Part shown: piece after piece, positions 50,965 to 54,742 of the stretch
How positions within the stretch are numbered: position 1 is the first letter of the stretch
Layout of the letters: each line of letters opens with the position of its first letter
NCBI GenBank assembly: GCA_002899765.1
Contig: PPDH01000039.1
Coordinates: 1 to 64,000 of the forward strand
From: Sulfurimonas sp.
Lineage (GTDB): Bacteria > Campylobacterota > Campylobacteria > Campylobacterales > Sulfurimonadaceae
Direction of reading: 5' to 3'
Length of the DNA: 64,000 bases
The notes under the pieces: model-generated
Told to the model about the DNA's origin: nothing
Seen by the model: the letters and a program-made list of their open reading frames with translations, nothing else
Database searches by the model: none
Translations under genes and position numbers: made by a program

Positions 50965-51109
50965 AAACTATTCTCTTTAATGTTAATCTTTTTGTCATTA
51001 TATCAAATTAAATTGTCTGAGTACAAAGTAGTTTAAAAATATTTAAGCAAAAAATATATTATGCTCAGTTTAATAAAATATGTGCAATTATTGAAACCGA
51101 ATTCTTTTT

Positions 51110-51643
51110 TTGGAGGATATCATGCAAGCTATAAACTCTTTAATTTTTAAACTCTCTGCCGCCTCTTTGTTCTCTGCTGTGCTTTTGTTGCCGATTATGT
51201 CGTTTGCACATGGAGACAGTAGTCCAGATGCCGTAAAAAAAGAGGTACATGTTGATAAAAACCTGCCCTTATATGAAGCAATCAACAGCTCATATTTGGC
51301 AAATATCAAGCCTATTTTAGAAAAAAAATGTTTTGACTGTCATAGCGATTCGACCAGATTTCCTTTGTACTATAAAATACCGGGATTTAAACAGATGATT
51401 GATTATGATATCAAAAAGGCTAAAAGACATATAAATATGAGCAAAGATTTTCCCTTCATCTCTCATAACACTCCGCTAAAAGATTTAGAAAGCTTAAGAG
51501 AGGTCGTTATAGAAAACGATATGCCTCCGCTTCGCTACGTCATCGCACATTGGGACTCTAGGTTGACCAAAAGCGAAAGAGAAGCCATCATTAAATGGAG
51601 CGAAGAGTCAATATCTAAGCTAAGAGAGTTTCGTTATCAGTGA
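51110..51643 (+). CDS. Heme-binding domain protein (single CxxCH)
   Basis: 'KPILEKKCFDCHSDSTRFPLYYKIPG', 'SREAIIKWSEESISKLR'-type C-terminus. Confidence 0.82.
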   Translation: MEDIMQAINSLIFKLSAASLFSAVLLLPIMSFAHGDSSPDAVKKEVHVDKNLPLYEAINSSYLANIKPILEKKCFDCHSDSTRFPLYYKIPGFKQMIDYDIKKAKRHINMSKDFPFISHNTPLKDLESLREVVIENDMPPLRYVIAHWDSRLTKSEREAIIKWSEESISKLREFRYQ

Positions 51644-51674
51644 AATAACAGACTTCTTTTATAACCTCTTTTGG

Positions 51675-51771
51675 ATTGCTTCACTTGTCATTGCGAGGCT
51701 TTAGCCGCGGCAATCTCAATAACAGAGTGATTTTCGATGACGGTCATTGCGAGGAAGAATGACGAAGCAAT
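51675..51771. repeat. REP-like palindromic repeat pair
   Basis: GTCATTGCGAGG at 51687-51698 and 51743-51754; outer inverted ATTGCTTC/GAAGCAAT. Confidence 0.8.
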
Positions 51772-51993
51772 CTAAGTTATACAAGAAGTCTAACATGTCA
51801 ACCTCACAGCTCTCCTCTAAAGGCACTGTCCAAGATGGAAGCTTTCGGGGCTTTGATACTAGCAATTTTCTCTTTTTGCAATGTGTAAATTACTTAGTTT
51901 TTTTAACATAGATTTCAAACTATTGGTAAATTTATCTATTTTTTACTCATAGGTTATGCCGAAATTATTGAACTTTTTCAACATGTCAAAAAA

Positions 51994-52026
51994 ATATACC
52001 GAAATTTTTTGATTTTTTCGGTATAT
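51994..52026 (-). terminator. Rho-independent terminator of the fic/zeta operon
   Basis: 11-bp perfect stem ATATACCGAAA/TTTCGGTATAT followed by a T7 run on the minus strand. Confidence 0.8.
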
Positions 52027-52029
52027 CAT

Positions 52030-52536
52030 CTAAATATATTGAATTCTTTTAATAAATAAATTTGTCAAAAGCTCTTGAATAGTCTCATAATCTTGTGGCG
52101 GAGTATAAATCACTTCACCCGTCCCAGCATTTTTGAGATTTGTTCCTGCTTGTTTTCGTACCCCTGCATTATTTTGTTCTAAAACACCTTGTATCTCTAC
52201 AATGTGTTTTTTAAGAAGTAGTTTTGTATCTTTGACAAGTGCAAAACCTCCAAGAAGTGCTTCTTTATAGTTTTGCACCTCTTTTGCTTCGTTTGTCACA
52301 CTCTCTATATCAAGATTTGCACGATAAAGCTCATCGTGAGTTGTGATGATATTCTCTATCTCACTACTGTCTTTTGCTTCTTGAAGAACTAAAGAGTTTA
52401 TAAGTATCGCACTATTTGGGATGATACGAGCCACACCGTTTAGGTTTGCCAAAGCACGGTTTGCTGATATGGCTTTTTTTAGGACTTTTTGGGTTTCAAT
52501 TTGATGAGATAAAGGTAGATTATTTAGCTCTATCAT
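52030..52536 (-). pseudogene. Fic N-terminal fragment lacking the catalytic core
   Basis: Fic N-domain 'SSEIENIITTHDELYRANLD' and 'GVRKQAGTNLKNAGTGEVIYTPP'; no HPFxDGNGR before the stop/terminator. Confidence 0.8.
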
Positions 52537-53375
52537 TTTATTCTTTCCAAAATTTCTTCCGCAGGAGAATCTTGAATTTCTTTATGAAATTGTCTAATAT
52601 TTGAATTGAAAATATCAGATTTATTTCGGAGAAATTCTTTAAAACTCTCAAGAGCAGTTTTTACATGATTATTTTTTTGAGCAATAGCTTGTAGTTTATT
52701 TACATCAACACCATCATTTAAAAAAGCAAGATAAATATCAAATGAGTCCCGTTCTCTTTTTTGTTTTTGGCAGCTCTCCATCTTTGTAAGAAACATACCA
52801 GTAAAGTCAACAAGATTAAATTCAAAACTGTCTAATGTGTATTTATCAAATAAACTATCATCAAATAATAAAGCAGAATTAGGTAACACAATTGACGTCA
52901 TTTTTACTGTTTCTTCCCCTTTTAAAGGTACATCTAAATCCAAATGGTCAACAAACAGTCCCCTATTTTCATCATACTCAGTCATTTTTGGATGAAGTAA
53001 ATCAATATTACAAATAAAATCTTTATCTTGTATCTTTTGCTCTTTTAGTAATTGAAACTTGTGTTTTGCAGATGGTATGAATCCAGCTTCAATAAAAGCT
53101 TTTATAATGTCTTTGAGAGCCGTTGATTGATATCCTTCCCTAAACAGAATATCTACATCCAAAGTTCCAGGATGAACAATATCTTTTTCATTTCTTAAAA
53201 ATGGGCACCAACCACCTATAATAATATATTCCAATCCTTCAAATTTAGATAATTCACTAACAGTTTCTTTCAATAAATTTTTTGCACCATCATTTATAGA
53301 TTGTAGTTCTACTAAATTCACTTTATAATCTCCCTCTGCAACTTTCCGAACACTTCCAAACCAGCTCAAAATCAA
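52533..53375 (-). CDS. AbiEii-like nucleotidyltransferase
   Basis: 'YIIIGGWCPFLRNEKDIVHPGTLDVDILF'; TTG start next to the zeta-like stop. Confidence 0.65.
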   Translation of the reverse strand: MILSWFGSVRKVAEGDYKVNLVELQSINDGAKNLLKETVSELSKFEGLEYIIIGGWCPFLRNEKDIVHPGTLDVDILFREGYQSTALKDIIKAFIEAGFIPSAKHKFQLLKEQKIQDKDFICNIDLLHPKMTEYDENRGLFVDHLDLDVPLKGEETVKMTSIVLPNSALLFDDSLFDKYTLDSFEFNLVDFTGMFLTKMESCQKQKRERDSFDIYLAFLNDGVDVNKLQAIAQKNNHVKTALESFKEFLRNKSDIFNSNIRQFHKEIQDSPAEEILERIK

Positions 53376-54110
53376 CTAGCATATCTGTTTTGTTTTGAGT
53401 AAGTATTTATCAACCCATTGCGGGATAGTTTCACTTTTAAACTCAAACTCTTTAGCATTGTTTATCTGAGCTATCCATGATTTTTCTTGACTTGAATTGT
53501 CAAATATATATGCTCTCGTAGAATATTTTACAGCTTCAGATAATAGTTCTAGTGAACGATAATAACGACTAATTATTTTATCTTCAGGAACGCTATGACC
53601 GCCTAGTTTTACTCTGTTGTTTACACGAGATATATTTACTATTGGGTCTTGTGTTGCTATGAAATAGAGGTAAGTTCTGTATCCTGCTTCTTGTGCTTTT
53701 TTTAAAAAGTCAACCTTGTCTCTTGAAGACATAACTGTTTCAAATGTAAAAGATATTTTTGATTTTAAAAGTTGGTGACGAATAAAGTCTGCACAAATAG
53801 AAGCATAATATGAGTTAATAGACATATTTGAAAAATCAATTTTATTATCAAGAAATCTCAACAAAGAGAGTTCATTAGCTAAGTCAGCTTTCTCAAGAAG
53901 TGGATGATTCTCAAAAAAGGAGATAACCTCCTCTTCATTTGTTTCAACTCTATAATTTAGCATATCTAAAAAACTAAATTTGTTTATCTCTTTTTCTATC
54001 TCATCAGGATTGATATACACACCAAGCAACTCTTTAGAGATGATGCTATTGAGTGTACTTTTTCCACTTCCGTTTGGACCTGCAAACATCCGTAATCGTG
54101 GAGTATTCAT
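53376..54110 (-). CDS. Zeta-toxin-like P-loop kinase
   Basis: 'RLRMFAGPNGSGKSTLNSIISKELLGVYINPDEIEKEI', 'SFTFETVMSSRDKVDFLKKAQEAGYRTYLYFIAT', 'RVKLGGHSVPEDKIISRYYRSLELL'. Confidence 0.85.
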   Translation of the reverse strand: MNTPRLRMFAGPNGSGKSTLNSIISKELLGVYINPDEIEKEINKFSFLDMLNYRVETNEEEVISFFENHPLLEKADLANELSLLRFLDNKIDFSNMSINSYYASICADFIRHQLLKSKISFTFETVMSSRDKVDFLKKAQEAGYRTYLYFIATQDPIVNISRVNNRVKLGGHSVPEDKIISRYYRSLELLSEAVKYSTRAYIFDNSSQEKSWIAQINNAKEFEFKSETIPQWVDKYLLKTKQIC

Positions 54111-54328
54111 TCTAAAATAATCTTTTTATTTATATCTACTTTGATATATGGAGCAACATCTTTAATCTTTTTTTTACTTCCATCTGCAAAAACTTCGTAT
54201 ATTGCACCGTCTATAACTTCTAACACACTATTTCCTGCTGATAAAGTATCAATATAGGCTTTGTGCATAGCACCATTTGCAAGTGAGGGAATTAACTTTT
54301 CCAAATTGTCAAGTTCTGCATCTTTCAT
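54107..54328 (-). CDS. Small protein preceding zeta-like kinase (antitoxin candidate)
   Basis: 73 aa, overlaps the zeta start by 4 nt. Confidence 0.6.
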   Translation of the reverse strand: MKDAELDNLEKLIPSLANGAMHKAYIDTLSAGNSVLEVIDGAIYEVFADGSKKKIKDVAPYIKVDINKKIILE

Positions 54329-54493
54329 AATAAAGCTCCTTTTGTTGTTCTAGTTTTATCGTTTTTTTGCGCCTCTACAACTCAAAAGAGCGCTATTTTC
54401 TTAAAACACCAAAATTAATATATTTGATTTATTATAGCTACTATTTCAGCATAAAAGATAAAAATTTATACCATCTATTAAAAAAATGTCTAT

Positions 54494-54742
54494 CTATTGT
54501 ACAGTTCTACCCATAGAAGACAAGTCAAACTTTACAAGGTTTTTTTCACACTCTATAGTAATTATGCACCCTTTTTTAGTGACTTTTTTTGCATCTTTAA
54601 TATCTGCTAAAAGGTTTATAACCTCTTTGCTTTGCGGGTCGTAAGCTTTGAGTGTCTCATCTTCTATAAAAAACAATCTTCCGCCGCCGCAGCCGTCGCC
54701 TATGATTCCCTCGCACACGAGCGGATTATCTAAATCAAACAA
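54494..54742 (-). CDS. Hypothetical protein
   Basis: 82 aa ORF. Confidence 0.5.
   Translation of the reverse strand: MFDLDNPLVCEGIIGDGCGGGRLFFIEDETLKAYDPQSKEVINLLADIKDAKKVTKKGCIITIECEKNLVKFDLSSMGRTVQ

Follow-up and report, generated by a model that had tools for sequence, protein, structure and literature searches.

Four minus-strand open reading frames (ORFs) at positions 52030-54328 of a 64,000-nucleotide stretch of Sulfurimonas sp. DNA (contig PPDH01000039.1, hereafter the window) raise the question of whether they constitute one functional system or are separate elements that share a locus. The initial annotation located these ORFs accurately, and its assignment of the encoded kinase, nucleotidyltransferase (NTase) and Fic protein to toxin or defence families, and of the locus to a defence island, holds. 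The genes are nevertheless two unrelated small modules (a 73-aa protein/zeta-like kinase pair and a lone NTase) together with a broken SoFic gene. The island as a whole is probably a defence cassette that ends in SoFic and has decayed, located in a Sulfurimonas hotspot, with the two modules as its independent cargo. Its unusual feature is a tandem palindrome array beside the broken gene, which goes with SoFic genes across this family of bacteria and lies at the end of loci with very different phage-defence genes. The earlier focus on four genes missed both this array and SoFic as a recurring element whose upstream partners change. The features of the locus are as follows.

50968..54493, no strand: insertion between greA and a conserved 82-aa gene (approximate extent, from alignment to genome G264)
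51110..51643, plus strand: haem-binding-domain protein
51879..51911, minus strand: palindrome unit 4
51920..51952, minus strand: palindrome unit 3
51954..51986, minus strand: palindrome unit 2
51994..52026, minus strand: palindrome unit 1 (11/11 arm match)
52030..52536, minus strand: remnant of SoFic (class II Fic), with the N-terminal domain and inhibitory helix kept and the Fic motif and C-terminal domain deleted
52533..53321, minus strand: MNT/AbiEii-type NTase, 262 aa, GTG start; 4-nt overlap between its stop and the start of Fic
53376..54110, minus strand: zeta-like P-loop kinase, 244 aa (GPNGSGKST; invariant D36, R162, R166)
54107..54328, minus strand: small protein of 73 aa, putative kinase antitoxin; 4-nt overlap between its stop and the start of the kinase

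A broken SoFic gene inserted at the greA site

SoFic is a single-gene anti-phage system (PADLOC SoFic, NCBIfam NF046030) whose product has been reported as an AMPylating abortive-infection protein (PMC12249575). The window ORF matches Fic_N (2.5e-28) and SoFic (1e-40), and its similarity covers the first ~165 residues of SoFic families only, that is, their N-terminal half. The class II inhibitory-helix motif SSEIEN is retained, whereas the catalytic HPFxDGNGR is absent. This motif is present in the intact 355-aa orthologue of genome G306, which carries Fic_N, Fic and SoFic-like_C domains, the last of these being deleted in the window and present in orthologues. About 190 codons have been lost through an internal deletion, and the sequence after it (TTCAATATATT...ATACCGAAA...) continues as it does behind the intact SoFic genes of L136 and L139. 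The previous description of a Fic N-terminal protein is thus correct for the domain that is kept, but the ORF is an internally deleted gene whose tail and array run on as in intact relatives. A search of the window's genome returned no other close fragment of SoFic. Judged from its sequence, the protein, having neither the catalytic motif nor the C-terminal domain, cannot AMPylate.

On alignment evidence, the island is an insertion that is absent from relatives. The alignment with genome G264 (L080) breaks off at 50967 and picks up again at 54549, with some 100 bp intervening; the greA site is also contiguous in L114, L123 and L125, and in several congeners the 82-aa gene and a ThiF-like gene come straight after greA. 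The haem-binding gene may belong to the insertion, since the window, G202 and G564 have it next to greA and empty sites lack it. The same site holds a DUF1016 nuclease in G360; in G202 it contains DUF1016, AAA and HNH genes together with the haem-binding gene and a full-length SoFic, and in G564 it contains DUF1016 and SoFic fragments with the haem-binding gene.

A palindrome array next to SoFic and changing defence cargo

The array consists of four tandem 33-bp palindromes, mostly 40-41 bp apart, each with an 11-bp spacer between its arms. The strong terminator that had been recognized at 51994-52026 does correspond to a palindrome, but this is the first unit of the four. A loose palindrome scan without a model gave 91 arrays compared with 44 in shuffled sequence; because so many of these were chance arrays, a covariance model built from 66 palindrome units was used. 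Across the window's 2.39-Mb genome, this model returned four significant matches, all of them the units at this Fic, and the possibility that the array is a dispersed REP element was rejected on this result. Stem arms covary across units, with pair counts that lean towards pairing as the units were selected by arm complementarity. The arms differ in sequence between units of one array, and hybrid units with unlike arms occur. An Rfam scan of 50.4-55.5 kb yielded nothing, and comparison by eye indicated that the units, which are multiple and lie beside SoFic, differ from the difH and dif sequences given in PMC2731167. A dispersed REP-like repeat of different sequence (CATTGCGAGGCTTTAGCCGCGGCAATC) is located at 51689-51715; 28 copies within 3 mismatches are present in the genome, many of them clustered on contig C10, versus 0 for a reversed control pattern, which bears out the report of a REP-like repeat beside the locus.

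Arrays follow all 20 of the examined SoFic genes that are 72% or more identical to that of G306, and in most members of this close clade the first unit overlaps the stop codon or lies directly against it. Neighbouring units are spaced by 41 bp in 38 of 51 intervals and by 40 bp in 10 of 51. In 11 more distant SoFic genes (59-63%), one to three units are found 5' of the gene, in the promoter, and the gap from them to the start codon is roughly 20 to 65 nt. A family-wide array search returned 29 loci, 20 of which have a Fic sequence nearby; at least two further loci carry a short Fic scar, and L161, L175 and L171 are among those without Fic. The units at L171:1501-1574 (G282) are intergenic, with no Fic or obvious cargo, and possibly mark a site after complete cassette loss. 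At L147:10110-10580 (G141), a few hundred nt past the SoFic array, there is an ORF that by eye resembles a REP-associated tyrosine transposase. In Escherichia coli, the antitoxin gene AS1 is located downstream of Sofic (PMC12249575), whereas in the window this position is occupied by the palindromic array.

The genes directly upstream of array-associated SoFic genes are mostly defence genes. Directly or one gene further upstream, these neighbours include LmuB (Lamassu), RhuM with DUF1016, an OLD/Gabija-like ATPase, full-length Avs4, a PIN protein, a metallophosphoesterase-STAND protein, type III RM, a PtuA-like ATPase, MNT-HepT and HsdR. At the site between kdsB and trmN, one genome has the NTase, SoFic and the array, another has SoFic and the array alone, and further genomes contain other cargo with a SoFic scar or without SoFic. 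Two genomes likewise have different cargo before SoFic and the array between ubiE and xseA. Because cargo differs at the same chromosomal sites, it appears to turn over while SoFic and the array stay. Such exchange would probably proceed via homologous recombination through the shared SoFic-array sequences, a mechanism suggested by the sequence comparisons. No description of the association of SoFic with arrays and changing defence cargo was found in the literature searched, and as far as that literature extends, it represents an undescribed variant.

Operator, recombination site or RNA element

The palindromes are most likely SoFic operators, by analogy with CccR of Yersinia pseudotuberculosis, a class II Fic protein that has a C-terminal helix-turn-helix and represses its own expression by binding, as a dimer, to inverted repeats in its promoter (PMC9755527). 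The array would then be a cooperative operator bound by the C-terminal helix-turn-helix of SoFic, a putative function that is given about an even chance. It agrees with the helical phasing, the dyad symmetry, the lack of a clear wobble excess and the promoter position in distant orthologues. It fits less readily with the location of the array 3' of SoFic in the close clade, which is an odd place for an operator, with the mixed arm sequences within one array, and with arrays that have no Fic. The likeness to CccR is one of analogy only: CccR is a T6SS effector, and its footprint comprises two 10-bp repeats 26 bp apart, whereas the window has tandem 33-bp units with an 11-bp spacer.

Alternatively, the array could be a site-specific recombination or attachment site (integron attC-like or Xer-like) with SoFic as its frequent cargo, which is considered unlikely. 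Such a site would be in keeping with the way the array closes each cassette on its 3' side and overlaps the final stop codon, with its persistence between kdsB and trmN alongside varied cargo and without Fic, with covarying arms and hybrid units, and with the arrays at both ends of the L133 cassette. The other cassettes examined, however, have no left-end array, empty greA sites carry no array, and no recombinase was noticed among the listed ORFs; the units in the promoter of distant SoFic genes and the apparent dissimilarity to difH also argue against it.

An RNA element, in the form of tandem 3' UTR hairpins that terminate, stabilize or regulate the SoFic mRNA, is likewise improbable. Covarying stems, a constant orientation relative to Fic and a place 3' of the gene would suit such hairpins, but wobble pairs are few (22 of 122 non-Watson-Crick cells, 18% versus 15% in shuffles, a count in which unit selection itself disfavours wobble pairs) and most stems lack a following U-tract. 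In distant orthologues the units sit close upstream of the start codon, and a spacing of 40 or 41 bp, seen in 48 of 51 intervals, points instead to phased DNA sites.

If the operator reading is extended, SoFic and its phased array might tentatively be regarded as a portable module, in which cooperative binding to the array would sense or control the upstream defence genes and the shared sequence would mediate their exchange; this broader proposal is rather doubtful.

The remaining modules of the island

Since SoFic is dead in the window, any remaining activity there would have to come from the 73-aa/zeta pair or the NTase. That the Fic remnant instead works in trans as an inhibitor of incoming SoFic toxins, and is not a pseudogene, is very improbable: the open frame does keep the whole Fic_N domain and the SSEIEN helix motif, but relatives (L158, L160, L166 and L156) have differing Fic scars, as decay predicts, and a conserved short Fic form was not seen.

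The kinase matches Pfam Zeta_toxin (1.6e-11), and the best PDB matches of its structure model (pLDDT 86.7) in Foldseek are zeta and PezT (3q8x, 1gvn and 2p5t; E 3e-6 to 6e-5), in accordance with its earlier identification as a P-loop zeta-like kinase. It shares with epsilon-zeta and PezAT systems the kinase fold, the Walker A motif and a small gene immediately upstream, overlapping, which is here both adjacent and co-conserved. The window pair differs from these systems in that the kinase shows only remote similarity (14-16% identity across the structural match) and the 73-aa partner has no sequence similarity to epsilon or PezA. Profile searches gave no curated family match for this partner, and its family profile retrieved repeat-protein and unrelated matches only from the PDB. 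Among 399 genomes of the order, the partner lies immediately 5' of the kinase in all seven close homologues, being recognized by tblastn in six and by position and alignment in the seventh (L038). It also precedes the kinase on six Azotobacter/Pseudomonas plasmids, five of which have no annotated gene under the match, and accompanies the one zeta relative found in viral contigs (L048). A second copy of the pair, 96% identical, is present in G276 in the order HsdR-73aa-zeta-AbiD-Tmn-Fic scar-array-HsdM, where the scar is the 5' part of SoFic. The two genes form a probable toxin-antitoxin pair, with kinase toxicity predicted from family membership and the 73-aa protein as the putative antitoxin. 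Loss or titration of this partner, for instance during phage infection, would let the kinase poison the cell through phosphorylation of a nucleotide-sugar or another small metabolite.

The NTase probably starts at GTG 53321 and not at TTG 53375, because homologues align only from the former, which is preceded by a GAGGGAG stretch. A weak AbiEii profile match (a Pfam search gave none), a model (pLDDT 77.5) whose PDB matches are NTases, with MenT1 among the best, and the conserved GGW, DVD and N-x-D motifs (the relative L045 lacks the second Asp) together corroborate the GGW...DVDILF nucleotidyltransferase that had been proposed; structure models and their PDB matches support both the kinase and the NTase fold. 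The protein resembles AbiEii and MenT in its NTase fold, GG-W and D-x-D motifs and AbiEii-like C-terminal segment. Unlike them, it has no adjoining AbiEi/MenA antitoxin gene (no AbiEi match occurs among the four ORFs, and its neighbours are zeta and Fic), and it belongs to a separate subfamily seen only in scattered proteobacteria. In the order, it is found in 2 of 399 genomes (the window's and G306), both times directly 5' of SoFic, and in G306 it overlaps the intact gene by the same 4 nt. A single-sequence query of genome contigs returned nothing, and an alignment query returned four relatives with 50-59% identity, in Legionella, Acidithiobacillus, Pararobbsia and Methylovorus, with no Fic within the flanks examined. 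Viral contigs contained no relative with either query, and none was found in phages. An orphan NTase of this type would serve as an abortive-infection effector, a toxic or defensive role suggested by family membership.

Two further observations concern NTase relatives. In Methylovorus (L047:6840-7870), small ORFs whose peptide ends resemble one another come at intervals after the gene, a possible sign of repeated intergenic elements, for example integron attC sites. On a Leptospira interrogans plasmid (L041:2905-3489), the C-terminal part of a relative (34% identity), apparently truncated, adjoins an integrase-core transposase gene.

That kinase, NTase and Fic N-domain cooperate as one composite defence or addiction operon is scarcely credible and already largely refuted. 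The shared strand, small gaps and 4-nt overlaps, and the toxin- or defence-related nature of every family, speak for it. Overlaps of this kind are confined to two junctions, 73-aa/zeta and NTase/Fic, so the ORFs described as overlapping or abutting do so in part, the zeta stop being separated from the NTase by 54 nt if the latter begins at GTG 53321. Tight spacing and translational coupling were set aside as evidence of linkage because it is the genomic norm: in related DNA, 53% of adjacent gene pairs are no more than 25 nt apart. The quartet is also not co-conserved, which the initial annotation had named as grounds for refutation: it exists in the window alone, with no second case among 399 genomes of the order and the neighbourhoods of plasmid and contig homologues; the 73-aa/zeta pair occurs without NTase or Fic, the NTase occurs without zeta, and the Fic member is broken.

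As a composite system, then, the island is ordinary, and its 73-aa/zeta pair and orphan NTase are candidate abortive-infection modules. What matters more widely is the repeated pattern of one SoFic-array unit 3' of many unrelated anti-phage systems, including Lamassu, Avs4, OLD/Gabija-like, RhuM, type III RM, HsdR, MNT-HepT and AbiD/Tmn. The array itself offers a searchable DNA mark for locating defence genes. If SoFic binds it, these loci would provide a direct test of how a toxic AMPylase stays silent, and of how defence operons are regulated and exchanged.
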